Below, one piece after another: positions 833 to 30,406 of a stretch of 32,835 nucleotides of DNA (within the stretch, counting starts at the first letter, position 1; each line of letters opens with the position of its first letter). The position numbers and the translations under genes are program-made. The notes beneath the pieces are model-generated. The model had not been told where the DNA came from. It did not search any database and saw nothing but the letters and a program-made list of their open reading frames with translations. Source of the stretch: Calditrichota bacterium (GTDB lineage: Bacteria; Calditrichota; Calditrichia; Calditrichales; Calditrichaceae); the NCBI GenBank assembly GCA_024278755.1, contig JAJRSO010000010.1, positions 1 through 32,835 of the forward strand. The letters are read 5' to 3'.

Positions 833-1549
833 TTATACATTAGCCCATGTAACTGCTGAAAAAATCAATTGAAAACCAGTTGCACCACTAAAAAATAATT
901 TAATATGTGAATAGTCAAATCCCGCTTGTGGTAATAAATCAATTTGAGCACAAAAGAGAAATGCAAAAACTGTAAGAATTGTAAATGTTATAAAAACAGG
1001 AACATCTGCAAATTTGTATCCAGATAACACATTAGAGTGTACTTTTGTAATGTTTTCCTTTTCTTTACCATTGATAGTTGAGTCTAGCTTCATCTCGGCT
1101 AAAACATCAACAACTGTATCTCCGATCCAACAATAAAGAAAAAATACAATTGCAACTAATAATACACTGCTTGCACCAATCCAATGGTTGTCCTTACTTA
1201 TTAAGATTAATATAAAATTTGCTAATGCCACTATAATCAATAAAACGTTTGATATCTTAACTAATTTTTCAACTAATTTCTTTTTACTATTATCTGTAAT
1301 TTTATCAATTATTTCCTTACCACTTAAATCTCCATTTTCAGACTTTCTTTCTACAAACCAATACAGATAAGTTACAGCGATAACAAGTACACTACTTATT
1401 AATTCCCATGTTTTACCAATAAAATCTAAATAATTTTGGAAACAGTTGATTATCACAAAATTTGATATTACTAGGAGTACTGCTGCAATAATTAAAAGGT
1501 TGTAGTACCTCTTGTTTTTCGAGTATGGTTGAATTGTATAGTTACTCAT
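833..1549 (-). CDS. Hypothetical six-segment membrane protein
   Basis: The protein has 238 residues and about six hydrophobic segments, near residues 17-38, 47-66, 95-117, 122-144, 184-207 and 215-237. It has no signal peptide or known motif. A polar stretch rich in K, D and E (about 67-94) and another (145-183) would lie in the cytoplasm if the N-terminus is inside. Its ATG overlaps the stop of the symporter-like gene by four bases (ATGA), so the two are translationally coupled and probably work together. I do not recognise the family. It could be an accessory membrane subunit of the transporter-like protein or an unrelated membrane effector. Confidence 0.65.
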   Translation of the reverse strand: MSNYTIQPYSKNKRYYNLLIIAAVLLVISNFVIINCFQNYLDFIGKTWELISSVLVIAVTYLYWFVERKSENGDLSGKEIIDKITDNSKKKLVEKLVKISNVLLIIVALANFILILISKDNHWIGASSVLLVAIVFFLYCWIGDTVVDVLAEMKLDSTINGKEKENITKVHSNVLSGYKFADVPVFITFTILTVFAFLFCAQIDLLPQAGFDYSHIKLFFSGATGFQLIFSAVTWANV

Positions 1550-3201
1550 TTCGTTATCCTTTTAAATAATAAACCACCAAAATAAATTGCGAAACTTAAT
1601 ATGAAACAAACAATTATCGGGTACCACGCATATTCTGGATTGAATAAAACAGAATAAACACCGATACCTATACCTACGGCAGATGCTATAAGCATACTTA
1701 ATACAGCCCAATTTTCATTAGGTCTTGATTTTAAAAACACAACCCCAATAATTAGGGGTAAAATTGATAATATTGCAGTATAGAAAGTTAGTAATAGATT
1801 TATAAATAAATCACCACCACCAATAATATAATTATCAAAAACAATAAAAAATACGACTGCAATTATTACTGAAAGAAAACCAAAATATTTCCCTTTGTTT
1901 AAAATCAAACGTGTCTCATTTATATCGAATGTTTTTTGTTCTTCTATCAGTTTGCATGTTTTTGAATTTATGTCATAAGTATATGTAAAAGAAATACCCA
2001 TTATAAAAGAATCTAATGTAGAAAGCATTATTGAAATAATACTAACAATAAAAGTATAGCCTAGAATTTGCTCAAGAATAAAACTTGAATTAATCATCTG
2101 TTTTGGGAAGTCAATTAGAATATCTTCAAATGTCCAATTCGGGAAGGAAGTTGAAATTAACAACCCAAATACGATAAATAAGATCCAAGTAAAAGGTGAT
2201 TCTATTGCAAAATTCAATAATCCTTTTTTAATATTTTGATTAATTTCTGAATCTGAATGTGATTCTTTTACCGATAAAAGTCTTTGCCAATTGGTCAAAT
2301 CGACAAACTGCCAACCTAATGGAAGAATTATTAATGAAATAAGACCAATATATCCAAATCCTTCTAAATTAATAAAGTTGTTTAACTCAAACTTATTACT
2401 ATTAGTACTAATGATCAAAACTGAAAGGACTATTATTGAAATGAAAAACAAGGTAATAACAAGATTCAAAATTTTATCGAAAGATGTGCTTAGTGAAATA
2501 AATCTTGCTTTTCTGATTAGTAAAATGATTGGTGTCATAATTGTTAATACAATCAGTCCCCAGTTTAATGCACCGTTTATTGTAATTCCATTATTGAATG
2601 TCAAATACAGCAAATAAATTATTATTCCAAAAACTCCAAAATATGTAAATGTTAATTGCAGCTGATCTGTTCTTATAGAACTAACTTGTCCAGCTCTGAA
2701 AAGGTAAACAGCAATAAAGAAAATAAAAATAAATACTGAAACATAGAGCCAAATATTATCAGGAAAGATCGAAAGCAAAACTCGGGAACCAAACCATAAT
2801 TCAGCAATAATGAAACCAATGAATCCGACTACTGTTAATAGCGAAGCAATGATTCTCGCTTTTTGCCCATAGGACTCACCTATAAGTCCAAATAAGGTTT
2901 TTCCATTGCCTAAAAATTTTGAAATCTTGTTAAAACTAAAGTAGAAAAGAAGTATCCCTATTCCCCAAAATACAGCGTTAACAAAGGGGACAAAAAGAAA
3001 CATAGAAGCACCCCAAAATAGAAATGGGTATATTGTGCTTACTTGAAATCCATAAGCAATAGATGAAGATGTAAATTCTGTCTTTCCAACTTTTTTAAAT
3101 GCAGCAAAATAATCGTCAGGATGTTTTATTACATCCTTTTTTACATTCAGTGCTGCAAAAAGATAAATTAACAACGGTATTAAAATTATCAGTATTCCCA
3201 T
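1546..3201 (-). CDS. Sodium:solute symporter (SSS/SLC5)-like membrane protein
   Basis: The protein has 551 residues and about 13 hydrophobic helices, the usual length and topology of the SSS family of sodium-driven carriers. Family-like features are FRAGQVSSIRTDQLQ (about 168-182), matching the helix-5 region in which a conserved TD precedes the next helix, and LSTLDSFIMG (393-402), matching the conserved helix-8 LSTxDS segment that helps bind sodium in this fold. The substrate cannot be predicted. AAAAGGAT precedes the ATG at 3201. It is the first gene of a four-gene cassette bounded by attC-like sites and is coupled to the next membrane protein gene. A carrier in an otherwise defence-like array is unusual; it may have been recruited as a sensor or membrane effector, but this is speculation. 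Confidence 0.75.
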   Translation of the reverse strand: MGILIILIPLLIYLFAALNVKKDVIKHPDDYFAAFKKVGKTEFTSSSIAYGFQVSTIYPFLFWGASMFLFVPFVNAVFWGIGILLFYFSFNKISKFLGNGKTLFGLIGESYGQKARIIASLLTVVGFIGFIIAELWFGSRVLLSIFPDNIWLYVSVFIFIFFIAVYLFRAGQVSSIRTDQLQLTFTYFGVFGIIIYLLYLTFNNGITINGALNWGLIVLTIMTPIILLIRKARFISLSTSFDKILNLVITLFFISIIVLSVLIISTNSNKFELNNFINLEGFGYIGLISLIILPLGWQFVDLTNWQRLLSVKESHSDSEINQNIKKGLLNFAIESPFTWILFIVFGLLISTSFPNWTFEDILIDFPKQMINSSFILEQILGYTFIVSIISIMLSTLDSFIMGISFTYTYDINSKTCKLIEEQKTFDINETRLILNKGKYFGFLSVIIAVVFFIVFDNYIIGGGDLFINLLLTFYTAILSILPLIIGVVFLKSRPNENWAVLSMLIASAVGIGIGVYSVLFNPEYAWYPIIVCFILSFAIYFGGLLFKRITK

Positions 3202-3247
3202 TTTTTATCCTTTTAGTTATTATTATAGTAGTGTCTTTCTTTGCCTT

Positions 3248-3387
3248 GCCCATAACGGTTTGAATATGGTGCGTTTGGCATTTCAATGCTCCATAATTTC
3301 AATTTACTACTATATTTATTTATTGCTATCATCTTCATTATTAGTACCATCCGCCAAATGCACTATATTTTTTGTTGTGTGTAGTGC
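3248..3387 (-). repeat. attC-like recombination site B
   Basis: A 140-base imperfect inverted repeat. The left arm is GCCCATAACGG followed by a segment reading TATGGTGCGTTTGGC. The right arm is CCGCCAAATGCACTATA followed by GTTGTGTGTAGTGC. The central CAATTTACTACTAT (3300-3313) is shared with sites A and C. The predicted crossover is between 3256 and 3255. The site begins at the base next to the stop codon of the SLATT gene, the typical position of attC at the 3' end of an integron cassette. Confidence 0.7.
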
Positions 3388-3957
3388 TTATTTCTTTCGC
3401 AATGGTGTTGGTAAAAAATTATCAATTTCTTCGTCACTAAATGTTAACTCTTCATTTATTTGTAATGCTTTTTGTGCCACCGAATATGCTTTACTATATG
3501 TCCTTGGTGAACCTTTGTAAGTTTTTGAAAGTTCCTCTTGTAACTCGTCTCTTTTGACTATTATATCATTTGTACTAATTAATCTTGCCTTTAAGTCTGT
3601 TAGCAGCGATAAATATTTTTCTCTGATTTCTAACAATTCCAAAGCCGCTGTTGAATGCTTTTGAATAGTTTCACCTAAATTATACTCTTTTAAATAACTT
3701 GTTAAAGCAAATAGAACTGCTGATAAGATTGTACTTACTATCAAAGCCCATTCTTCACCTTTAAAAACACGAACCAAAAGCCCTGTTGTAATTAAACCCG
3801 ATAGAATAATTTGTAGGTTTTTAATTCTATTGTTTCTCTTTTCCAATAAGTCTGCACACTTTTCTTGAGTTTTGTGTGAATAAACTATTTTACCATAGTT
3901 TTCTCTAAGCTGAGCTTCTAATAACTCATATTCGCTAAGACGGGAATTCGTATCCAT
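3388..3957 (-). CDS. SLATT-domain two-helix membrane protein (putative pore-forming effector)
   Basis: The protein has about 189 residues, with an N-terminal helical segment, two adjacent membrane helices (LQIILSGLITTGLLVRVF and WALIVSTILSAVLFALTSYL) and a long C-terminal helical, charged region. This is the SLATT layout, a family predicted to form membrane pores or channels and found next to nucleotide second-messenger synthases. The start at 3957 is chosen because GGAGAG lies upstream of that ATG; a longer frame from 4023 would lie deep inside the preceding gene. The first codons overlap the CD-NTase 3' end by 23 bases, so the two are coupled. The likely role is to damage the membrane when the cyclic nucleotide made by its partner signals infection. 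Function is inferred from family and neighbour. Confidence 0.75.
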   Translation of the reverse strand: MDTNSRLSEYELLEAQLRENYGKIVYSHKTQEKCADLLEKRNNRIKNLQIILSGLITTGLLVRVFKGEEWALIVSTILSAVLFALTSYLKEYNLGETIQKHSTAALELLEIREKYLSLLTDLKARLISTNDIIVKRDELQEELSKTYKGSPRTYSKAYSVAQKALQINEELTFSDEEIDNFLPTPLRKK

Positions 3958-4816
3958 ATATTTCTCTCCATTTTTGTTTTGCACTCCACTCTTTTTCGTC
4001 TCGTTGCAGCTGTATCGCTTCAACTGCTAGATTGTAAGCGGTTTTTGCTTTATATTCAAATTTTCCTTTTCTATAAATTAACTGATTGCTACCTAATGCG
4101 TACCAATAAGCTTGGTTTTCATTTTGGTTTTTTAGGAATTCAAAGAAATCCCTTGACATCAAGTCGTAGTATAAATATGATTGGTTTTTATTTGACCAGT
4201 CCTTTAAAAAGTTATATGCTAAAGTATCTATTAATAAGCCTCCCATAGGTACATTACAAAAGCCTTTCCAAGCTCTTGTCATTTTGCAAAGACGCTTCAA
4301 ATTGTAATTTAATTTTGGGTCTTCCTCTTTTATTTTATTAATTTCAGGATGTGGGTCTGTTTTTTTCCACGAACCACCACCATTTGAGTCCTGATATGTA
4401 TATGATTTGTCAGAATTCTCGAAGGCAGGAACAACCTCAAAATTTGTTCCATCAGAGAAAGTAATAGCAATAACTTGTCCATCTGCTCCAATACTTGTCG
4501 CACTATAAGTTTTCTTTATTGAATCTTTAACTGCTTGCAATAAGGATGATTGACCATTATAAGTGTAATTGTCATAGGTTGCTTTTAAGTGTGCTGGTAA
4601 CACAAAAATCATATCAATATCACTTTCATTTTTGATTGATGTATTTCTACCATATGAGCCAACATAACGACTAAATAAAGTTTCACTTGGACTATCCCAA
4701 AAATCAATATTAAGTCTATTAGTAATAGCCTTATATCGTGTTGAAATCGTAGAACGTTTGTCTGTTCCTATAATTAAATTGTCACAAAACTGTTTAAAAT
4801 ATTGAGCTTCACTCAT
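3935..4816 (-). CDS. CD-NTase (SMODS family cyclic-oligonucleotide synthase)
   Basis: The 293-residue protein has the nucleotidyltransferase core: GSYGRNTS (53-60), then the metal-binding pair DID (66-68) and a third acidic residue in FEVVPAF (E127). This order and spacing is that of the SMODS/CD-NTase family, which makes cyclic di- or trinucleotides upon phage infection in CBASS-type systems. The product cannot be told from sequence. The C-terminal half is helical, as in the family. No Cap2/Cap3 or HORMA/TRIP13 genes are present, so with the SLATT gene it would form a two-gene minimal system. It is the first gene of a 1.6-kb cassette; its start lies 45 bases inside the proposed junction at 4862/4861. 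The ribosome site is weak. Confidence 0.85.
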   Translation of the reverse strand: MSEAQYFKQFCDNLIIGTDKRSTISTRYKAITNRLNIDFWDSPSETLFSRYVGSYGRNTSIKNESDIDMIFVLPAHLKATYDNYTYNGQSSLLQAVKDSIKKTYSATSIGADGQVIAITFSDGTNFEVVPAFENSDKSYTYQDSNGGGSWKKTDPHPEINKIKEEDPKLNYNLKRLCKMTRAWKGFCNVPMGGLLIDTLAYNFLKDWSNKNQSYLYYDLMSRDFFEFLKNQNENQAYWYALGSNQLIYRKGKFEYKAKTAYNLAVEAIQLQRDEKEWSAKQKWREIYGYEFPS

Positions 4817-4848
4817 TGCTTATCTTTTAGGTTTTAGATGGTTTGTTC

Positions 4849-4987
4849 GCATTACACACAACGGTTGGGCTATGCGGAGTTTGGGCTTTTGAAACAATAA
4901 ATATTCAATTTACTACTAATTTTATCTAATGCTACAAACTTCAATCTCAGCATATTGCCCAAATTACGTATAGCCTTTGTTATGGGC
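4849..4987 (-). repeat. attC-like recombination site C
   Basis: A 139-base inverted repeat. The left arm contains ACACAACGGTTGGGCTATGC and then TTTGGGC (to 4886). The right arm is GCCCAAATTACGTATAGCC followed by TTTGTTATGGGC (4957-4987). The arms pair over about 30 bases with few mismatches. The central CAATTTACTACTA (4906-4918) is shared with sites A and B. The predicted crossover is between 4862 and 4861. It closes the large restriction/ABC-3C cassette and precedes the CD-NTase gene. Confidence 0.7.
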
Positions 4988-5060
4988 TGGCATTGTTTCA
5001 ACTCCATATATTTTTCTTTCAAATTTGCTACAATATTCATTTCTTACGGTGCGTTGGCAA

Positions 5061-5122
5061 GACATACTCTTTTGCAATTTTTGGTCAAGCATTGGCTCGT
5101 GGGAATTGCAAATGTGTATGGC
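5061..5122. repeat. Large hairpin just after mod
   Basis: GACATACTCTTTTGCAATT (5061-5079) pairs with AATTGCAAATGTGTATGGC (5104-5122) with few mismatches, around a 24-base loop. It begins 12 bases after the mod stop codon. There is no run of T, so it is not a standard terminator. GTTGGC lies outside both arms (5053-5058 and 5129-5134). It may protect the mRNA 3' end or be the remnant of an older recombination site lost when cassettes fused. Confidence 0.55.
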
Positions 5123-5133
5123 TTTCGGGTTGG

Positions 5134-7149
5134 CTATTCCAATTCTATTATTGTTTCATCTCCTGATATGTTCCTTATTTTCAGTCTTAAAGGTTTTTTA
5201 TCACTTTCAATTTTTCCATTCCAAAACTCTTTTGTTTTCTTGCTATTTAAACTAATATATCCGAGTTTATCAATTTTAATTTCACTGTCACTTTGCCATT
5301 TTCCTGTTGAGTTGGTGCAATCAAGACTTATTAGTTCAATTAGTTCTAATCCTTCTTCGCTAATGTTTATTGGTTTAAATTCCTTGCCTTTGCTTATTGC
5401 TTGTAAATTACCTTTTTCGTTAAACTCATTAATCTTTTGCATCAATCTGTCGCTTACAAATTTTGTGATTTCTGTTGTGTAAATCCCATCTTTTTCAGTT
5501 GTTGTAAATTCTGCAATATCTTCTACTACAACATCGTGCAATAGGTTTTTAAGGTCTTTTAATTCAACTTTTATTTCGGTGGCATTATTGTCTTTTATAA
5601 ACTGTTCAATCTCTTTATAATCGACAATATCAATGTAATAAACAATTACTTTTTTAGCTGATATTTCAAGGTTTTGTAATTCCTGATTTACAATTTTATT
5701 GATAAGCGGAATATCCAAAACTTTTTCTTTGCTATCAATTAAGTTAGGCACGTAAACAGGCACAGTACCAAGTTTACTATCTTGTATTGCTCCAAACCAA
5801 AATTTGCTTACTCCTTCAATTCCTTGTTGCAGACTTGGAATAAGTTTAGCCATTTTATCCATAGTTTGCACAGGATTACGAAACAGATTTACACCGTCTT
5901 TTATTTCCATTATTTGAAACTCTGCACCCGCTTCTTTTAATCTGTCTCTTGTGGTTTGTATGCTGTTTACTCCAATATCACAATGTATAAATTTCCTGCC
6001 TAAATCGTTGGCTACTTTTGCTGTAACTCCGCTTCCACCAAAGAAATCGGCTACTATCATATCTTTGTTTGATGATGCTTTAATTATGCGTTCTAATAAA
6101 GCTTCTGGTTTCTGTGTAGAGTAATCCAATCTTTCTTTTGCCATTGGGTTAACAATAGGAATGTCAAGCCAAATATTTTGAATTAACTGTCCTTTATATT
6201 TATCTGCATATATTTTCCTATATATTCGGCTATTAGGGTCGTCAGGAATAACAAGTTCATTCTTATCATATAGCTCTTGCAATCTTGATTTTTGATACAG
6301 CCAACCATTTTCAGGTGGATTTATGCCCATAAACACGTATTTGAGATTGGGACGAAATAATGAATTAACTAATGGTGATTTCATATATTTTCTTCCATCA
6401 CCATCATCGTAAACAAATCTTTCTTTCAAATAATTCTTAGTGTTTTCATCTTCAAGTGAATATTCTGCATTAAAAACGTATTCATCACCCTTACAATACC
6501 AATAAATTGTATCATTAGTAATTCCAAATTGTTTGGAAGCGTAAGAAGTTGCTAATTTTCTTCTCCAAACAATCTCATTAACAAAATTATCTTCCCCAAA
6601 AATCTCATCCATTAAAATCTTTACATAATGACCAATATGCCAATCAAGATGCACATAAATACTTGCGGTATCACTCATAATGGATTTAATGGCTTGCAAG
6701 TTTTCAAACATCCAATTTAGATAATCTTCTTTTTTCCAAATATCGCCATACATTTTTTCATCAAATGCTTGCAGTTCGCTGTTGTCAAGTTCTTTTTCGG
6801 CTTGTGCTATTTTTTCAGCAAGTTTCGGGTTTCTGCGTATATGCACTTTTTTAGCATAATCAGCACCGCTGGCAAAAGGTGGGTCAATGTAAACCAAATC
6901 AACTTTTATTCCCTGCTCTTTCAAGTAAGCACAGGCAGAAATACATTCGCCACGAATTACAAGGTTTTCAGAGTTGTTGCCAACTTGCTCTATCGGTTCA
7001 ACTTCGTAATAAGGCATTCCACGTTTAATACGGTCGTAAACTTTATCATTATCACGATAACGCAATACTCTGCGAGTTCTACTGAAATTATCTAAGACCG
7101 CTTGTCCTTCAACTGTGTTTGGTGTGTATGGTATATATTTTATTGGCAT
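5134..7149 (-). CDS. mod: Type III restriction-modification system methyltransferase subunit Mod
   Basis: The 671-residue protein carries the catalytic motif YIDPPFASG (DPPF at 89-92), then the S-adenosylmethionine-binding motif ADFFGGSGVT (367-376). This order, catalytic before cofactor site, is that of beta-class N6-adenine methylases, including type III Mod subunits. The segment between includes the target-recognition region. The start at 7149 is chosen because AAAAGGAGAT lies just upstream; the frame is open to 7176 but that would overlap the ABC gene. It is the last gene of the operon, 19 bases after the ABC ATPase stop codon, and works with Res, encoded three genes upstream. The recognition site is unknown. 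I saw no simple tandem repeats that would suggest phase variation. Confidence 0.92.
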   Translation of the reverse strand: MPIKYIPYTPNTVEGQAVLDNFSRTRRVLRYRDNDKVYDRIKRGMPYYEVEPIEQVGNNSENLVIRGECISACAYLKEQGIKVDLVYIDPPFASGADYAKKVHIRRNPKLAEKIAQAEKELDNSELQAFDEKMYGDIWKKEDYLNWMFENLQAIKSIMSDTASIYVHLDWHIGHYVKILMDEIFGEDNFVNEIVWRRKLATSYASKQFGITNDTIYWYCKGDEYVFNAEYSLEDENTKNYLKERFVYDDGDGRKYMKSPLVNSLFRPNLKYVFMGINPPENGWLYQKSRLQELYDKNELVIPDDPNSRIYRKIYADKYKGQLIQNIWLDIPIVNPMAKERLDYSTQKPEALLERIIKASSNKDMIVADFFGGSGVTAKVANDLGRKFIHCDIGVNSIQTTRDRLKEAGAEFQIMEIKDGVNLFRNPVQTMDKMAKLIPSLQQGIEGVSKFWFGAIQDSKLGTVPVYVPNLIDSKEKVLDIPLINKIVNQELQNLEISAKKVIVYYIDIVDYKEIEQFIKDNNATEIKVELKDLKNLLHDVVVEDIAEFTTTEKDGIYTTEITKFVSDRLMQKINEFNEKGNLQAISKGKEFKPINISEEGLELIELISLDCTNSTGKWQSDSEIKIDKLGYISLNSKKTKEFWNGKIESDKKPLRLKIRNISGDETIIELE

Positions 7150-7168
7150 ATTTTTATCTCCTTTTAAA

Positions 7169-8962
7169 TCATCCAAAAATTCGTTTAAAAATTGTTTTCT
7201 CTGCTACATCGTGAAATTCGGCAACAATACTTTTTTGAAAATCAAAATCAAATTTTCCGTATTCAGTAGTTTTTTCATTAGGGATTATAATTTCATCTTC
7301 ATTAAATGTCAGAATATATTGAAATCGTTTATGATTGGCATTTTCAAGATATCTGTGATAAACATAATTTATTGTATTTATTCTTGTTTTTAATGAAATA
7401 CCGTGAAAAACTCCATCGTGAATTAAAAAATCCGGTAGTTTTCTATCATTAATAATATTGTATAAAAATACCATTAAATCGTAGGCTACAATTTTTAACC
7501 GTGATTGCCCCAATGCATCAGCTTTTGGTATTTCTATTTCAATGTCAAAAGGTAATTTTTTACGATTTGCTGTTGGCTTCGGTACTATATCAAAATAAGC
7601 ATTATCATAACTTTCATCAACGAAAATAGCTTGTTTTAATATATCAATAAACAATTTTCTTAATTCTTCTACTTTACTTTCATACTCTTTTAACTCTTTT
7701 GAAATGAGTAGTTTTACTTTACTTATTGTTACATTCAAATTATTAAGCATTTCTTGATATTCATCAATTTGCTTAATTACTTGTACATTTTTTTCTAAAT
7801 CAGTTTTTTCAATAATCAATTCTTCATAAGTGTTTTTAACACTATCTAAAGCCCCTTTTTCGTCTAATGATTTATAAAAACTACTGCGTTTAATTTCCAA
7901 ATTAGAAATGTCATTTAAAACTTCATTTATAGCTTCTTGCAGTTTATCTTCTTTCTGTATTAAATATTTTTTCCTGTTTGCTAATATGTTGTTTTTGAAA
8001 TCAATTACTTCATCTAATGTTTTGGCAACCTGATTTCCGAAATTTTCAACTACTTCGTTATATATTTTACGAATTTCTTTTGTCTCGATATTCTGATTTA
8101 TATTATAACTCTCTCTTATTTTATTTAATTTATTATCTAACGAATTGTATTCAGTAAGTTTGACATTGATTAGTTTAGTTACTTCAACCAACTGCGTTTC
8201 AATATCTTTGTATTTTTCAATGAAATGATAATTATCTAAACTATTTTCAAGTAAAATAATTCTTTGGTCTATATTTATACGTTCGCTTTTATATTCTTGA
8301 ATGGATTTACCTGTTTCAATTTTAATTTTTTTCTCCGCTGTTTTTATAGCAGATGCATTCTCATCATATTCTTTTGATTGCTCGTTGTAATTAATTAAAT
8401 GTTTTGTAGGTAAATTGAGCAAGAAAAAATTATATATGGCTTTTTCTTTTACACTTGCGTTATACTTCATAAAATTTAACGGGTCAAATCTTTTCCCACT
8501 ATCTAAATCATCTTTTATGAAAAAATTAAAAATTGTTCTAAATCTTTCACCTTTAAAAAATACATCATCATTTTCTACAGATAAAAACAAATCCGATAAA
8601 ATGGTTTTAAATTCTGTTTTTTCAAATTCATCAAGTTTGCTTAATGATGTACCGAAATATATGTTCGATTTTTTATTAAAGTCTCTTTTTATAAAATATG
8701 TTTTGTTGTTAATTTCAAATTCTAAGATAATATCGTGTTCATCTTTTCGTAGAAAATCATATTTTTTATTAGAAAATATTTTCTGAGCACTATCTGAAAG
8801 AAAAGCATAGTCAATCAATCTTATTAAAGTAGATTTACCTATTCCGTTAACTCCGGTGGCTTCTTTATCACCTGAATATTTACCCAGAATAATATTAATC
8901 CCCGAATGGAATTTAAAATCTTGTAATAATAATCCTGTATTTGAAAATAATCGTTTTATCAT
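7169..8962 (-). CDS. ABC-3C-type ATPase with long coiled coil (DUF2326-like)
   Basis: The 597-residue protein begins with an SMC/RecN-like ATPase half containing the Walker A motif GVNGIGKST (37-45). A long charged coiled-coil region follows (about 190-450). The C-terminal half resumes the ATPase fold with FDIEIEIPKADALGQSRLKI and a segment ending LPDFLIHDGVFHGI, where the Walker B-like acidic residue is expected. This matches the DUF2326 ATPases of ABC-three-component (ABC-3C) conflict systems. It is expected to bind DNA or nucleoprotein ends and control the partner effector. It starts five bases after the middle-component gene and stops just before mod. It is not a transporter: it has no membrane segments. 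Confidence 0.8.
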   Translation of the reverse strand: MIKRLFSNTGLLLQDFKFHSGINIILGKYSGDKEATGVNGIGKSTLIRLIDYAFLSDSAQKIFSNKKYDFLRKDEHDIILEFEINNKTYFIKRDFNKKSNIYFGTSLSKLDEFEKTEFKTILSDLFLSVENDDVFFKGERFRTIFNFFIKDDLDSGKRFDPLNFMKYNASVKEKAIYNFFLLNLPTKHLINYNEQSKEYDENASAIKTAEKKIKIETGKSIQEYKSERINIDQRIILLENSLDNYHFIEKYKDIETQLVEVTKLINVKLTEYNSLDNKLNKIRESYNINQNIETKEIRKIYNEVVENFGNQVAKTLDEVIDFKNNILANRKKYLIQKEDKLQEAINEVLNDISNLEIKRSSFYKSLDEKGALDSVKNTYEELIIEKTDLEKNVQVIKQIDEYQEMLNNLNVTISKVKLLISKELKEYESKVEELRKLFIDILKQAIFVDESYDNAYFDIVPKPTANRKKLPFDIEIEIPKADALGQSRLKIVAYDLMVFLYNIINDRKLPDFLIHDGVFHGISLKTRINTINYVYHRYLENANHKRFQYILTFNEDEIIIPNEKTTEYGKFDFDFQKSIVAEFHDVAEKTIFKRIFG

Positions 8963-8967
8963 AGTAA

Positions 8968-9234
8968 TTACTCAAATAAATTCATTTGTTGTTTTCTTGT
9001 TCTTGGTGTTAATTTAACTTTATAGTTATCGTATTCTATTAACCCAAAACTATAAAGAAAAACCAAACTTTTTATAAACAAATCGGGTGTGCGTTTTATA
9101 TCTTTATTTAAAAAAGATTGCATAACCTTTTCTAATAACACCGTTTTTTTATGATGCTTCAGTTCCTTTATTACATCAGTTGCTACAACCAATATATTTG
9201 TGGAAAAATCGGTTTCAGGGTGTGGTAATATCAT
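8968..9234 (-). CDS. ABC-3C middle component (MC6-like)
   Basis: An 88-residue protein starting MILPHPETDFSTNILVVATD, with a C-terminal winged-helix-like part (FIKSLVFLYSFGLIEYDNYK). Size, the N-terminal pattern and the FLYxxGLIEY segment fit the small middle component that bridges the ATPase and the effector in ABC-3C systems; MC6 is the closest type I recall. The ATG overlaps the stop of the effector gene by four bases (ATGA), and the ATPase gene follows after five bases. Family assignment is from memory of the pattern and is less certain than for the ATPase. Confidence 0.7.
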   Translation of the reverse strand: MILPHPETDFSTNILVVATDVIKELKHHKKTVLLEKVMQSFLNKDIKRTPDLFIKSLVFLYSFGLIEYDNYKVKLTPRTRKQQMNLFE

Positions 9235-10115
9235 AATTTTTCTCCTTTTGTTTTACGACCTATTAAACATTGCTCAAAAAGGTAGATTAATACAGCTCTG
9301 ATATAAAATGAAAATTCATCATCATTTTCACTTGAATATTTATCTAAATACTTTTCCGTAAGTTGTTGTAAACGACTTTTAAAATCTCCTGACTTGTTAT
9401 TAAAATCATTAATAATACGAACTTTTAATTTGTTTGTATCTTCATCTTCGTATCCAAACAATAAACTTTTTATTTCATTAAAAACACCATTTTCAAAATA
9501 TATATCGTACTCTTGAAAAACGTTGTCTATATCTTCTTGATTATAATTCAGGCTTACTTTATCAGAAAAGTATATTTGTTTTTTATATTCAATATTTTTA
9601 TCAGTAAAAGAAGTATCTTTAATCAAATCTTCAATTATCTCTTTTAGATAATCTTGTGCAAATAGTTCTTTTTCAACATTTAAGTAATTACCTATTTCCC
9701 TTTTCTGAAAACTTGATAATTCTTCAATAAATTGCAAAATATTTTTCAATCCTATTTGAGTTGTGTCTTTTTTTAAAGATTGTATTTTAGAAATTGCCCA
9801 CTCAGGAATATCATTGTTTGTAACAAACATCCAATTATTATATTTATCTTTCCAAAATTCTGAATATGAACTAAAATCATCTTCGATTTTTTCTAAATAT
9901 CTTTTTTTATCTATTTTTTCGGGACCATAACAAGCTATAATAGTTTCTTTGTCCACAATAATACCATCAGCACCTTTGTCTTTAATATCTCTTGGTGGGA
10001 TATAGTTCTCAGCACCATATCGAAACATAAATAATTTTGTTATGAAGTTCTGGAACTCATATTTGAACAAAGATTGTATTTGTATTTTTAAACTATTATA
10101 TAATGGTTTATTCAT
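9231..10115 (-). CDS. ABC-3C effector with nuclease-like N-terminal domain
   Basis: The 294-residue protein has an N-terminal restriction-endonuclease-like fold (about 1-110): FQNFITKLFMFRYG, then KGADGIIVDKETIIACYGPE. The pattern GxDG...CYxPE is the one I associate with the N-terminal domain of ABC-3C effectors. The usual PD-(D/E)XK lysine is not visible where expected, so activity may be altered or lost. The C-terminal part is helical and acidic, and probably binds the middle component. The gene start overlaps the res stop by eight bases and its stop overlaps the next start by four, so res, effector, middle component and ATPase form one coupled unit. Confidence 0.65.
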   Translation of the reverse strand: MNKPLYNSLKIQIQSLFKYEFQNFITKLFMFRYGAENYIPPRDIKDKGADGIIVDKETIIACYGPEKIDKKRYLEKIEDDFSSYSEFWKDKYNNWMFVTNNDIPEWAISKIQSLKKDTTQIGLKNILQFIEELSSFQKREIGNYLNVEKELFAQDYLKEIIEDLIKDTSFTDKNIEYKKQIYFSDKVSLNYNQEDIDNVFQEYDIYFENGVFNEIKSLLFGYEDEDTNKLKVRIINDFNNKSGDFKSRLQQLTEKYLDKYSSENDDEFSFYIRAVLIYLFEQCLIGRKTKGEKL

Positions 10116-13008
10116 TGAAAAAATCTTTTATTTTTAAACTAAGTTTACTTAAATTGGCAGTTATATCTTCATTATCTACAAGATATAAAAAATCAAATTT
10201 GTTATATCCGAATTTATCTTTATTCTGCTCTAAAAATTCTGTTTCTACAAACTTTCGCTTTTTTTGAAAAACAGGGTCGTTTTCAAAACCTTTTCCTTTT
10301 GTTTCAATGATAAGAGCTTTATGTATCTCATTTTCTTTTCGCTTAATTATTAGAAAGTCGGTTGTATATTTCCCTATATTTTTCCAATAATTATTTTCTT
10401 TTGCGAAGCATTTTATTATAAACTCTGTTAAACCACGTTCACCGTTATAATAAATTTCTAAATCATTGTTTTTAAAGTCAGATAGATTGAGCGTTTTTTG
10501 TAAAATTTCTTTTTCAAATCCGCTTTGTTTAAAATCGTAAGGTAAATAATGAAATGTATTATCCTTGCTTTTTATGGCAGATGAATAATCAAATTGTTTT
10601 TTAAAATCATCAAATGAAATTACCATAGCTTCCATTCCTGCCTGAACAAGACCTTGTTTCATAATCTCATAAGATTTCTCTACTTCTGAATTGTCAATTT
10701 CTGTGGGATTACCACTTTTATCTAATTCAAGTATTTTTGAAACATCCTTTTCTATTGGAAACAATTTGTCGTTTTGCTCAACCGATTTTAAATTGTCAAC
10801 AATTAGTAAATCTGCATCTTGCTTTAATACTTCACTTTTGGTTTGTAATTGTCGTTTTATGCTAAAAGCAATTCTAATTTGTGAGTTTATTTGATACAAA
10901 TCGTAAAGCTCATTAAAGTAAAGATGATTATCTTTTTTGAAAGTTATTTTTTGAAAAAGAAAATTTAGCTCTTTTACGTAATTGTTTAAATCTGAAACAG
11001 TTATTTTATTGTAACTTTCTTTTGATATTTCAAATAACCACCTATTAAAATTGGCAAAATTTGTTCCTGTTTGTTCTATCATTTTTATATCAGCATCGTC
11101 AATATTGCTAAGTTCGCTTGTTTTGATTAATGCAGATTGTTTGTAATTATCAATTTCTTTAAGTAAAGTTTCTAATTTCTTTTTAGTATTTGGCTTTTCT
11201 TCTTCGTTTATAGAATTGTATGTTATTTGAAGTTGGTAAAATTCAACTTTTGGCAGTTGTAAATGTTCTATTCTTGAAAAACGCTCAACTTGTTCAGGTT
11301 CAATTTTTTTGTCAAGTTTATTTAATTCTTCAATACTTGTTTGTTGTTCTTTTTTAAGTTGTTCATTTAATACCTTTGCATTGTATTCGTTAAGCCAAAT
11401 TCTTGCTGTTTCGTGTTTACCTTTGTCAACTTGCCTTAAACATCTACAAGAAGTTTGCAAAACCATATTTTTAGGACTATCTCCTTTTTGCGAAAGAATA
11501 ATCGCTGTTAAACTTGGGCTGTCCCAACCTTCTTTTCCTATTTGCACAAGTAAAACATATCTTTTTTTTGTTGCAGAAATGGTTTTAGGAACATCAAGCG
11601 TATTAAAAAGCAATTCGTTTTCAGCAGGTAGTTTATATTTTTTATTTCCCTTATGATAACGAAGTATTTCATCAGGATTTATTTTTAAAGTTCCTGTTAG
11701 GTATGGATAAACTTCTTCTTCAAGGCTTTCTATATTGCTACAATAAATAGCAATTTTTGCAATATTTCCATTTTCGTAAACTTTGTTTTTATAATGTTTA
11801 TTAAAATCTTTAATGCCCTTTTCAATTACTTGAAATTTATCAAGATTTTGAGCAATTTTTACTTTTGGTGTTTTAAGAAAATTATTAATCGCTGTTACAA
11901 GAGGATAATAATAAACCGTATTTGTTATTTGAGAAAACTTAAAAAAGGCTGTTTCAGTTACATTTATTTTATCTGCCTTTGACAAATAAGGTGTACCTGA
12001 AAAACCGAGAACAGTAGTTATGTTTCCTGTTTCTTGCCAATTATTTACAACTTGTCTTAATTTTATATCACCGTCTGTTGCGTGATGCACTTCGTCAATT
12101 AAGATTGATAAATTTGGAATTTTTCCAATCAGGTTTCTAAGCTCATTTGCGTATTTATCTTTTTCGTCTTCCGATTTCTCAAACAATTCTTGCTGAGCAT
12201 CAAGGTAAGTCCGATTTAAGATTACTTTTTCAGCATTTACAACAAATACTTGTCCGAATGGATTTGGCAAACAGTGATTTACCTTTTGAGCATTTGGATT
12301 TTCAGCCTTATTGCTTTTGCTCGCTGTTTTTGCTTGGTCAAGTATTTCAAATTTTAATAACTGCTTTATTTTACTTGCCGATGGTTCTGGTAGAACCCAA
12401 CTTGGGTCAAATTTTTCAATTGTTTTTAAACTTGGAACAATTGATGATTTTAAGCCCGAAGGGATTAAAACAAGAAAATTATGTGCAAAGTTTTTATTAT
12501 CAGGTTCATTATCTGCAAAATATAAGTCAAGATAAATCATTGAAGCCATTAAGAATGTTTTACCTGCTCCCATAGGCAAACTCATAAGATAGTCGGCATA
12601 GTTTACATTGTAAAAAATTCGTTTAATTATTTCTTCATATTCAATATTTTCAGGTTGTTCTATGATTAGTTTTTCAAGCTCTGGGAGTAGTGTTGTTTTT
12701 CCGTTTTTTTGTCTTGTAAAGTCAAATAATGCTAATGCCGATTTATTCTTTGAAAGAAAATCTCTTGTATTTTGATTTATATTTAATTTTGACAAATCAG
12801 TTCCATTTGTAAAAAATCCTTCTGCGAATAATTGCCAAAGGGGTTTATTTTCTCCTTTAATTTTAAGAAACAAATATGTTTCAATTGCTTGAATTTGAGT
12901 GTCTCGTAATTCTCCTTTCTTACGTATGTATTTTACAAGGTCTTTTACGCTACAATCGTCTGATTGTAACCACTCAATAGTTTTATATTTAATTATATTA
13001 TTTAACAT
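10108..13008 (-). CDS. res: Type III restriction-modification system endonuclease subunit Res
   Basis: This protein has about 966 residues, with an SF2 helicase core followed by a nuclease domain. Visible motifs are Walker A PMGAGKT (about 145-151), DEVHH (305-309), SGTP (337-340), the segment GKEGWDSPSL, and QTSCRCLRQ (518-526, motif VI arginine finger). Near the C-terminus YTTDFLIIKR and, after a short gap, ALIIETKG give the PD-(D/E)XK order D...ExK. It cleaves DNA, with Mod, when sites are unmethylated. The ATG at 13008 is preferred because GAGAGAAAG precedes it; a TTG at 13023 is the alternative. The start overlaps the XRE gene by 11 bases. Its usual partner mod lies three genes downstream, separated by the ABC-3C genes. 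Confidence 0.9.
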   Translation of the reverse strand: MLNNIIKYKTIEWLQSDDCSVKDLVKYIRKKGELRDTQIQAIETYLFLKIKGENKPLWQLFAEGFFTNGTDLSKLNINQNTRDFLSKNKSALALFDFTRQKNGKTTLLPELEKLIIEQPENIEYEEIIKRIFYNVNYADYLMSLPMGAGKTFLMASMIYLDLYFADNEPDNKNFAHNFLVLIPSGLKSSIVPSLKTIEKFDPSWVLPEPSASKIKQLLKFEILDQAKTASKSNKAENPNAQKVNHCLPNPFGQVFVVNAEKVILNRTYLDAQQELFEKSEDEKDKYANELRNLIGKIPNLSILIDEVHHATDGDIKLRQVVNNWQETGNITTVLGFSGTPYLSKADKINVTETAFFKFSQITNTVYYYPLVTAINNFLKTPKVKIAQNLDKFQVIEKGIKDFNKHYKNKVYENGNIAKIAIYCSNIESLEEEVYPYLTGTLKINPDEILRYHKGNKKYKLPAENELLFNTLDVPKTISATKKRYVLLVQIGKEGWDSPSLTAIILSQKGDSPKNMVLQTSCRCLRQVDKGKHETARIWLNEYNAKVLNEQLKKEQQTSIEELNKLDKKIEPEQVERFSRIEHLQLPKVEFYQLQITYNSINEEEKPNTKKKLETLLKEIDNYKQSALIKTSELSNIDDADIKMIEQTGTNFANFNRWLFEISKESYNKITVSDLNNYVKELNFLFQKITFKKDNHLYFNELYDLYQINSQIRIAFSIKRQLQTKSEVLKQDADLLIVDNLKSVEQNDKLFPIEKDVSKILELDKSGNPTEIDNSEVEKSYEIMKQGLVQAGMEAMVISFDDFKKQFDYSSAIKSKDNTFHYLPYDFKQSGFEKEILQKTLNLSDFKNNDLEIYYNGERGLTEFIIKCFAKENNYWKNIGKYTTDFLIIKRKENEIHKALIIETKGKGFENDPVFQKKRKFVETEFLEQNKDKFGYNKFDFLYLVDNEDITANLSKLSLKIKDFFNE

Positions 13009-13201
13009 TCTGCTTTCTCTCAATTAATAAATCTTTCACTTCAACATCAAGTATTTCCGCAATTCTATAAAGCACTTCAAGTCTCGGTTGTTGCCGATTT
13101 TGAACATATGAGTTGACCATATTAAAACTTTTTTCAAGTTTCTCAGCCAACCAAGTTTGCTTAATTCCTTTTTCTTCTAATACTTCTTTTATTCTATTCA
13201 T
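12998..13201 (-). CDS. XRE-family helix-turn-helix regulator
   Basis: A 67-residue single-domain protein starting MNRIKEVLEEKGIKQTWLAE, with the five-helix HTH pattern (KQTWLAEKLEKSFNMVNSYV as the HTH core and LYRIAEILDVEVKDLL as the last helices). This is the size and form of controller proteins that time expression of restriction-modification genes. The ATG at 13201 is preferred because AAGG lies about five bases upstream; ATGs at 13216 and 13213 are possible. It is the first gene of the operon and overlaps res. Palindromes at 13246-13275, in front of it, may be its operators. The control role is inferred from position. Confidence 0.85.
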   Translation of the reverse strand: MNRIKEVLEEKGIKQTWLAEKLEKSFNMVNSYVQNRQQPRLEVLYRIAEILDVEVKDLLIERKQNVK

Positions 13202-13245
13202 TGTGCCTTGCATCAATTCAAAAATTTGTTTGCTAAAATATAAAA

Positions 13246-13275
13246 ATATAACTTCTTATATCTTATTTTTCAAGA
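13246..13275. promoter_or_regulatory. Candidate operators for the XRE regulator
   Basis: Two adjacent palindromes lie 45-75 bases in front of the XRE start: ATATAACTTCTTATAT (13246-13261, perfect 6-base arms) and TCTTATTTTTCAAGA (13261-13275, 4-base arms). The region is AT-rich, so chance palindromes are not excluded, but the position fits autoregulation of the restriction operon. Confidence 0.4.
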
Positions 13276-13458
13276 TATTTTTCTAACAATTTATATTATG
13301 TCTAAAACTCAACTGTGGGTTGAAAAAATAGCTCTTTTGGTTTTTTAGTGTTGATATTTTGCGTGTCGGCAAAAAACCAAATGTGCTATTTGTGTGGTGG
13401 GTTTTGCTTCTCTTTTGTAGCAAATTTGTCATTCCATTTTCATTCTTCCTGCTTGCCC

Positions 13459-13504
13459 ATAACGTCCCAATATACCTATTGTATATAGCGGGACTATATG
13501 TTAT
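13459..13504. other. attI-like site beside the recombinase gene
   Basis: ATAACGTCCC (13459-13468) faces GGGAC (13490-13494), then TATAT and GTTAT (13500-13504). This makes a short inverted site with the same AAC...GTT ends as the larger cassette sites. The junction to the first cassette is predicted between 13463 and 13462, with minus-strand G|TTATGGGC. It lies about 40 bases in front of the recombinase start, where integrons carry attI. Its short length differs from the 130-140 bp sites of the cassettes. Confidence 0.55.
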
Positions 13505-13542
13505 ATTTTATTATTTATATTACGAAAGATAAAATAATATAT

Positions 13543-14385
13543 ATGAAAAGACAAGAAATTATAGAGAAGTTCAATAAGCAAATTTGTATCGAAAACTATT
13601 CGGATCAAACGATTAAGAATTATTTATCTGTATTAAAACTGTTTTTAGAATGGGTTGAAAAATCTAAATTAAAAAAAGTGGATGAAAACGAAATTCAAAA
13701 TTATCTCTATTATTGTAAGACCGAGAAAAAATACTCCTACTCAACAATGAAGCAAGTTATTGCAACCATTGGGTTTTTATATAAAAAGGTTTTTTGTCAG
13801 CCACTTCCCAAAGCATTGGATATAAAATTACGAAAACCAACCCATTTACCAACGGTATTATCCATAGGAGAAATATCCAAAATCCTTAAAGTAACAAATA
13901 ATTTAAAACACAAAACCATTTTGATATTAATTTATTCGGGTGGTTTGCGTCTTGGAGAGTTAATTAATTTAAAAATAAGCGATATAGATTCGGAAGCAAT
14001 GAAAATACATATAAGAGGAGCAAAAGGAAAAAAAGACAGATATATTATGCTGTCTGAAAATGTATTGACTTTATTAAGAGCATATTATAAAGCCTACACG
14101 CCAAAAGAATATATTTTTGAAGGACAAAAGGGCGGCCGGTATAGTCCGCAAAGTGTTCAGTCGGCCTTTAAATCCGCTCTTAAAAGATCCGGAATAAAAA
14201 AGAAAGCCACCGTCCATACGCTTCGCCACAGTTTTGCCACACATCTTCTGGACGAAGGAACCGATATTCGCTATATTCAGGAACTATTGGGCCACAAACG
14301 GCTAGAAACCACTCAGATTTATACCCATATTTCTTCCTATTCCATCAATAAAATTAAAAGCCCCGCGGATAAGTTAAAAATATAA
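13543..14385 (+). CDS. Tyrosine recombinase, integron-integrase-like but lacking the IntI insertion
   Basis: The 280-residue protein has an N-terminal core-binding domain (about 1-95) and a catalytic domain with the tyrosine recombinase residues: R in SGGLRLGELINL, K in GAKGKKDRY, HTLRHSFATHL (H-x-x-R), LLGH and the nucleophile tyrosine in TTQIYTH. The C-terminal IKSPADKL resembles the end of IntI proteins. The roughly 20-residue extra domain of true integron integrases, between the lysine and the HxxR box, is absent, as in XerC/D. The ATG at 13543 is preferred; the frame is open from 13498 but that start overlaps the att-like site. Codon and base use change from AT-rich to G+C-richer near 14125. 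It reads away from the cassette genes and probably inserts and excises them. Confidence 0.85.
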   Translation: MKRQEIIEKFNKQICIENYSDQTIKNYLSVLKLFLEWVEKSKLKKVDENEIQNYLYYCKTEKKYSYSTMKQVIATIGFLYKKVFCQPLPKALDIKLRKPTHLPTVLSIGEISKILKVTNNLKHKTILILIYSGGLRLGELINLKISDIDSEAMKIHIRGAKGKKDRYIMLSENVLTLLRAYYKAYTPKEYIFEGQKGGRYSPQSVQSAFKSALKRSGIKKKATVHTLRHSFATHLLDEGTDIRYIQELLGHKRLETTQIYTHISSYSINKIKSPADKLKI

Positions 14386-25451: not shown

Positions 25452-26999
25452 TTATTTTTTTGGGGGCTCTCCCTGATCCAAACGGGTTTTGTTCAGACGA
25501 TCATACACCTGAAACGTACCGAGAGGAAGCGACTTATCCTGAACGAGTTTAATTTTCATCCAGTATTTCCACATCAGTTTCATCCGTCGGTTGTATCGGC
25601 CCTTATTCATAAAACGGTACACTTCAGGCGTCACCCGAACGGTGATACGGCGATCCCCCCGGCCGAAACGGTAGCGTTGCACCCAGCGTTCCACTGCCGA
25701 AACGGTTGTGTTTAGCGTTGGTACCAAACCGGTTCCGTTACAGACCGGGCAGGCGTCATTTATCGTGTGCACTACGCTGGGACGCACCCGTTGCCGGGTC
25801 ATTTCAATTAAACCGAAGCGGCTGATTTTCTCAATCTTGGTAATGGAACGGTCTTTCGTAAATTCTTTGCGCAGTTCCATAAATACTTTTTTCTTGTTTT
25901 CTTCATTGATCATATCAATAAAATCAATGATAATTAAACCGCCGAAATCGCGCAGACGAGCCTGGCGGGCAATTTCACGGGCGGCGATTAAATTGATCTT
26001 AAGAGAATTACTGTCGTGATCCTTACGGCCGATAAATTTGCCGCTGTTCACATCGATGGAAACCAACGCTTCGGTGGGTTCGATAATCAGCGAACCGCCG
26101 TTTTTGAGCCAAACCTTAGAGTGGCTGAGTTTTTCAATTTCCGGTTCAATATTATAATGATCAAAAATGGAAAGCTTGTCTTTGTAGTAGGAAACTTTAT
26201 GTGACAGGTGCGGCGCCACATATTTTACATACGAAACAATTTCGCGCATTAGTTTACGGGAATCTACCACCACGCTGTTCACATCGGCGGTAAACAGGTC
26301 GCGGATAATGCTGGAAGCCATGGCCATATCTTTAAAAACAAGAGCCGGCGCTTCTTTGCTTTTTATCTCGCCTTCAATTTTTTTCCATTCCGACATTAAT
26401 TTTTTTAAATCTTTACTGAGTTCCCGCTACTGTTTGTTCTCGGCAACGGTACGGATGATCACTCCGAAATGGTCCGGAATGATTTGCCGGGCTAAATTTT
26501 TAAGCCGGCGTCGCTCTTTTTGGTCGGCTATTTTTCGGGAGATACCGATGTTCCGCTTTCCCGGAATGAGCACCATAAACCGTCCGGGAAGCGATAGCTC
26601 CGTGGTAACCCGGCAGCCTTTGGTATTGATGGGCTCTTTAATAATCTGCACCAGAATGTCCTGGCCTTTTTTCAGATTTTTGGCAACGTTAAAATCGTCT
26701 ACCCGTTTATGTCTCGGCTTGTTTTCCGGAGCGGCGTCTTCTTCTTCATAGTCGATAAAATAATCCTGGTAGGTAGCCGATACATCGGAAAAATGTAAAA
26801 AGGCGTTTTGTTCCAAACCGATATCTATAAACACAGCCTGCATGCCGGGGAGTACACGGCTTACTTTTCCTTTGTAAATATCGCCGACCATACGTTCGTA
26901 TTCGGGGCGCTCCACAAAGAGTTCCACCAAATTCGAATCTTCCAAAATAGCGATTCGGGTCTCTTCATTGGTAGCGTTAATAATAATTTCTTTTGTCAT
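25452..26999 (-). pseudogene. rng: Ribonuclease G/E, interrupted by one in-frame TAG
   Basis: Read through one stop, the frame gives about 515 residues, the normal RNase G length. Residues 1-190 hold the S1 domain (GDIYKGKVSRVLPGMQAVFI, then GLEQNAFLHF) and the start of the RNase H-like part. The TAG is at 26427-26429, in VIIRTVAENKQ-stop-RELSKDL; relatives have a normal residue here, so GAG to TAG is one possible change. After it come the catalytic acids in VSIDVNSGKF and IIIDFIDM, and the zinc-link motif CPVCNGTG. The enzyme matures rRNA and decays mRNA. The first product would lack all catalytic residues; the second could start at the ATG at 26396 but lacks the S1 domain. No frameshift or further decay is seen, so a sequence error is also possible. 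Confidence 0.85.
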
Positions 27000-29965: not shown

Positions 29966-30406
29966 TCAGCCCATTAAATTTTTAATCATTTCCACCACTG
30001 TCGGAACGTTGGCGTGCGTATCGGGAATAATAATTACCGCATCGTCCCCGGCGACGGTTCCGATAATATGATTGTCTTTCAGTTTATCGAGATAAATACC
30101 AACTCCCTGTGCCCGTCCCGCCAAAGTGCGGATAACCACGGTGGATTAATTATGCGTCACGTTGATAATTTCCATACCGATGATGTTTTTCATGGCCCGG
30201 GAATTGTCATCTTCGTGGATAACGTATTTAAAGCCCTCTCCGTCGGGTATGCGCACGATGCCTATTTCGTGCAAATCGCGCGAAAGAGTGGCCTGAGTTG
30301 TGTCAAAGCCAAGATTTTTAAGACTCTGAAGCAGTTTCTCCTGGCTGGATATTTTTCCGCTGGTAATAATTTCTTTGATCTTAGACTGTCTGTTCTTTTT
30401 TGACAT
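29966..30406 (-). pseudogene. argR: Arginine repressor ArgR, interrupted by one in-frame TAA
   Basis: Read through one stop, the frame gives 146 residues, the normal ArgR length. The N-terminal winged helix is intact: KIKEIITSGKISSQEKLLQS, then TTQATLSRDLHEIGIVRI. The TAA is at 30146-30148, in MEIINVTHN-stop-STVVIRTLAG. The C-terminal hexamer and arginine-binding domain continues normally, with IGTVAGDDAVIIIPD (the conserved GTxxGDD motif). The truncated 86-residue product would have a DNA-binding domain but no arginine sensing. ArgR normally represses arginine synthesis genes; none is in the window. Whether the stop is real or an error cannot be decided here. Confidence 0.85.

Follow-up and report, generated by a model that had tools for sequence, protein, structure and literature searches.

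How a conserved transcriptional regulator comes to be interrupted by a single stop codon, and whether the living organism carries that interruption at all, is the question raised by the argR gene of this Calditrichaceae bacterium. The window considered here, meaning the whole stretch of DNA that was analyzed (32,835 nucleotides), contains on its minus strand a gene for an arginine repressor of the “ArgR/AhrC” type whose codon 87 is TAA (tta in plus-strand letters), which confirms the in-frame stop reported by the initial annotation. The features of the locus are as follows.

29966..30406, minus strand: argR (ArgR/AhrC repressor), interrupted; defined by the read-through frame and profile matches.
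30149..30406, minus strand: N-terminal part of argR, the DNA-binding domain PF01316 (residues 1–67) plus linker; profile match.
30146..30148, minus strand: in-frame TAA at codon 87 of argR, where every same-class relative compared has Glu (GAA/GAG).
29966..30145, minus strand: part of argR behind the stop, comprising most of PF02863; E = 6.7e-16 alone.

The open reading frame ahead of the TAA (30146–30406, minus strand) encodes 86 amino acids and by itself matches PF01316 across residues 1–67 with an E-value of 3.4e-23. Reading through to the natural stop, a TGA at 29966–29968, gives 145 residues with an X at codon 87, and the PF02863 match spans residues 80–142 of this product. PF02863 is the domain of arginine binding and oligomerization, the C-terminal domain of ArgR being responsible for hexamer formation and arginine sensing. 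As the TAA falls seven residues into this match, it lies inside a domain; the earlier description of a stop between two intact domains thus holds for the domains, which are otherwise intact, but not for the position of the stop. The 58 codons 3′ of the TAA match PF02863 independently (E = 6.7e-16), and the read-through product scores 130.1 bits against TIGR01529 (argR_whole), marginally below the cut-off of 130.45. Both domains of the known ArgR/AhrC repressors can therefore be recognized on read-through, but in contrast to those repressors the frame is broken at codon 87, so that PF02863 is present yet shares no single open frame with the N-terminal part. This is the sole PF02863 match of the 3.94 Mb assembly (95.8% complete), in agreement with the view of argR as a single-copy gene.

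Comparison with relatives indicates that the interrupted frame is more than a chance alignment, as not only does the 58-codon tail retain its domain match, but the ArgR C-terminal domain, found in 32 of 60 relatives searched, is interrupted by a stop in none of the 32. At the stop column, Glu occupies all 29 rows from same-class loci (these include four second loci of listed genomes and represent about 25 genomes) and also five named Calditrichia loci, while four loci from other phyla have Gly, Gly, Gln, and Ala. The congener, G001, is uninformative on this point because no ArgR match was found in its 72% complete assembly. A PF02863 match is absent from the other 28 of the 60 relatives, including all six of family f2, which suggests that argR is dispensable in the class. 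This lends some plausibility to a one-off pseudogene, arising by relaxed selection on arginine control and independent of the other stops described below. Such an origin is nonetheless improbable, as the substitution is of the same type as that in a neighboring gene and in many others and argR is otherwise undecayed.

That neighboring gene encodes an RNase E/G, and the claim that a second interrupted gene lies 3.7 kb away was borne out.

25452..26999, minus strand: RNase E/G (rng), the sister defect; profile matches and relatives.
26427..26429, minus strand: in-frame stop (TAG) of rng, at a site where G001, the congener, has GAA (Glu).

RNase G is present in 40 of 40 relatives and is free of stops in every row above the cut-off. 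The congener, 94.6% identical here, has GAA at the stop site, and the remaining relatives mostly have Glu or Asp. With Glu at both sites in relatives, the two stops of the window are each one G>T step away from a Glu codon. The neighbors of argR include, besides RNase E/G, a radical SAM protein (TIGR03960/TIGR03936) and ribosomal protein L21, an order that recurs in relatives, where the matches cluster on the same contigs; for the radical SAM gene, the named neighbors are Calditrichaceae/Caldithrix assemblies. Elsewhere in the window, positions 833–14385 form an island of low GC content (25–32% compared with 41–49%) that carries an integrase (13498–14385), a CBASS-like pair in which a SMODS nucleotide cyclase overlaps a SLATT_4 (2TM) effector, a DNA methylase, a DUF2326/PDC-M68B-like protein, and a ResIII helicase.

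The two stops are not isolated cases. Stops flanked on either side by same-frame coding signal were sought in 1,061,607 bases (approximately 27% of the genome) in scans that returned 48 rows, then 17 more, then 17, all sorted by eye. Among 32 rows examined further, 18 had the look of genes cut by TAA or TAG, three were TGA codons that probably encode selenocysteine, and 11 appeared to be ordinary gene ends or were ambiguous; rows outside the 32 were taken as ordinary gene ends. Together with the two in the window, 20 genes thus appear, by this visual judgment, to be cut by a single TAA or TAG. The earlier suggestion, that a pair of such stops within the window hints at base-calling errors or at functions being lost from a population, gains support from some 20 similar cases in 1.06 Mb, the 10 resolvable of which all fit one type of substitution. 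As a control, the complete, single-contig genome of the relative G006 gave 20 rows in 400 kb and 19 in a second 400 kb, among which one gene was clearly cut (L273:15332) and one case was ambiguous (L273:4622) in 800,000 bases. The clear case, an integrase gene on the plus strand in which TGA replaces an expected Arg, is an ordinary mobile gene in decay, and its type of mutation apparently differs from that of the TAA/TAG set. In the congener, no clear cut gene was found in 187,069 bases (16 rows, with L224:7511 ambiguous). In the genome with this excess, the cut-gene sites occur on both long and short contigs, the contigs reaching 322 kb. An ABC-transporter family tried as a probe for stops showed none among the matches listed and had little power.

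The TGA codons were treated as selenocysteine codons and not counted because the genome has a tRNA-Sec gene and because one of the codons is conserved. It lies in frame in the gene of a multiheme cytochrome c (L076:16424, minus strand, contig C79; weak match to TIGR04315), recurs as the same codon in four genomes (this one, G001, G004, and G009; L251, L252, L253), and is likely a selenocysteine; selenoprotein cytochromes are listed in PMC13188914. In a peroxiredoxin (L082:11762, minus strand), for which distant peroxiredoxins have Cys at the TGA position, and in a DUF3179-like protein (L074:16658, minus strand), TGA stands, as judged by eye, at an expected Cys, and both are likewise likely selenocysteines; PMC9312934 lists DUF3179 selenoproteins.

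What residue each cut gene had before its stop could be inferred at 10 of the 20, giving nine Glu and one Ser.

ArgR: Glu; relatives GAA/GAG.
RNase G: Glu; G001 GAA.
L072:3285, isocitrate/isopropylmalate-dehydrogenase-like: Glu; the three nearest relatives GAA/GAG, farther ones Asn, His, or Ser.
L091:7735, tetratricopeptide-like: Glu; GAA in G006.
L060:9183, oligopeptidase B: Glu; GAA, with Glu in PDB relatives.
L153:4439, GlnRS: Glu; GAG in the nearest relative, Glu or Asp in the others, Asp in PDB relatives.
L070:16433, FtsK: Glu; from solved structures only.
L073:5813, TatD: Glu; from solved structures only.
L067:1343, cysteine desulfurase: Glu; from solved structures only, a distant G006 paralogue having Ala.
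L091:18185: Ser; TCC in G001, one relative.

The cut genes without an inferred residue are L065:11579, L087:15180, L081:8987, L059:2967, L078:15681, L096:589, L072:3801, L072:501, L157:9854, and L165:6512. In several of these, distant homologues have residues that are not one G>T step from a stop (Gln at L078:15681, Arg at L096:589, Val or Gln at L059:2967, Leu at L065:11579), and the paralogues of L087:15180 have Gln, Lys, Glu, or Pro at the stop column. For the peptidase T site a close orthologue was not found. An apparent TAG inside the GlnRS of G016 proved to be that gene's own end.

All 10 resolved sites can be explained by a single G>T or C>A change, and all lie in a GpA/TpC context. An unweighted, symmetric G:C>T:A process acting on the genome's own codon usage predicts 54% Glu and 69% GpA/TpC, so that at least nine Glu in 10 has a chance of 0.021 and 10 of 10 in GpA/TpC a chance of 0.025. 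The usual route to nonsense, C:G>T:A, is required at none of the 10 despite 64 target codons per 1000. Read on the coding strand, the changes are nine at Glu versus one at Ser, the Ser coming from one relative; a clear case for strand symmetry would take more Ser sites than one in 10. No stop of the CpC type (GGA>TGA) was found. A methylation or base-modification motif was considered and set aside, as the site contexts share none by eye. Comparing repeats of the assembly with one another to obtain an error spectrum yielded four short pairs, and the one contig-end overlap examined has no excess of G>T.

The predominance of Glu raises another possibility. As the first resolved sites were all Glu, a reading of UAA and UAG as Glu was examined, in which a suppressor tRNA or recoding would act in conserved genes, at a few dozen sites, and leave the same codons as stops elsewhere, so that ArgR and RNase G would be full length. 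Nuclear codes in which UAR is Glu are known from some ciliates and from Blastocrithidia, where, as here, UAA and UAG stand at Glu positions. Glu at nine of 10 resolved sites, in genes otherwise intact, would fit such a code, but the Ser at L091:18185 means that UAR is not confined to Glu positions, many ordinary genes terminate with TAA or TAG, and the congener has no clear case in its 187 kb. In contrast to the known codes, moreover, no cognate tRNA was found: none of 46 tRNA matches had a UUA or CUA anticodon, in a list from 150 of 225 scored candidates that may be incomplete, as tRNA-Trp was not seen. ARAGORN with introns allowed gave matches with such anticodons that look like noise. Weakened by the Ser site, the tRNA survey, and the congener, an alternative code is very improbable, the least so favored of the explanations considered. 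As a separate observation on tRNA genes, a tRNA-Gln(ctg)/Arg(acg)/Glu(ctc) cluster occurs twice with differing spacing, at L149 (C2:15-453) and L150 (C50:141078-141659), the result of either duplication or contamination.

A substitution spectrum of this kind is that of oxidized guanine, since 8-oxoguanine pairs with A. Two origins may be envisaged, one in the sample and one in the cell. In the first, which appears somewhat the better bet, the argR TAA and the rng TAG would be errors of the assembled consensus bearing an oxidized-guanine signature, and the organism would carry an intact argR. Both would be Glu codons changed by one G:C>T:A substitution and would belong to the genome-wide set of this assembly, and they would go back to DNA damage or to a similar bias in base calling. 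PMC12390751 describes ex vivo oxidation leading to G>T artefacts in sequencing libraries; as here, these are G>T/C>A changes without other damage, but there they are low-frequency, strand-asymmetric mismatches in deep data, whereas here they would have become fixed in an assembled consensus. Several observations count against consensus errors. Contigs of up to 322 kb suggest decent coverage, under which random read errors should be outvoted; the sites lie on long as well as short contigs; and the earlier residue was inferred in 10 of the 20 genes, some distant homologues of the others being at odds with a Glu origin.

In the second, the stops would be real and the sampled population would be loaded with nonsense mutations of the G:C>T:A type, caused by oxidative mutagenesis or by a mutY-like mutator, a possibility to be taken seriously even if it is not the expected one. 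One type of substitution across the genome, the even distribution of the stops on long contigs, and the GpA/TpC context of every resolved site are all in keeping with it. In PMC10625568, mutY-deficient Pseudomonas aeruginosa is reported to show C>A changes where the context is CpC or TpC; the TpC changes resemble the sites here, but for the CpC changes no counterpart (a GGA>TGA stop) was found. Moreover, mutY and mutM are both present in this genome, above the profile cut-off and stop-free, so that a mutator through loss of either was rejected. The cut genes also include some expected to be essential (ftsK, glnS, and a cysteine desulfurase), which argues against stops in living cells, and the congener shows no clear cases.

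Real mutations of some age would be expected to leave decay behind the stops, and none is seen. Across argR, rng, the radical SAM gene, and the genes for L21 and L27, 633 columns do not vary among five or more relatives, and this genome differs at four of them: the ArgR stop, two changes of Pro to Ala, and one of Val to Leu (GTG>TTG, also G>T). These five genes look, from their sequences, to have been under selection until now, a pattern to be expected of an erroneous stop or of one that arose very recently. The undecayed tail of argR likewise gives no support for an old loss. The stop, the lack of it in relatives, the excess across the genome, and the earlier residue at 10 sites are observations; an origin in oxidized guanine, and a technical one rather than a biological one, is inferred from them and seems the more plausible interpretation.

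The consequences differ with the origin of the stops. If the argR stop is real, the predicted product is an 86-residue DNA-binding part incapable of oligomerization, hexamer formation, or arginine sensing, and the arginine genes would be predicted to be no longer tuned by arginine; were reads to confirm the stops generally, they would amount to a naturally occurring load of G:C>T:A mutations in presumably essential genes. If the sequence is instead accepted as it stands, conserved genes by the dozen, argR, rng, ftsK, and glnS among them, would be annotated as lost or broken, and the literature would gain a regulator that arginine does not control. The single substitution type behind the resolvable cases may offer a simple flag of consensus damage in assembled genomes. 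For this organism, the evidence points to the argR and rng stops as erroneous bases or as a mutation burden of the oxidation type, and not as a special feature of its biology.
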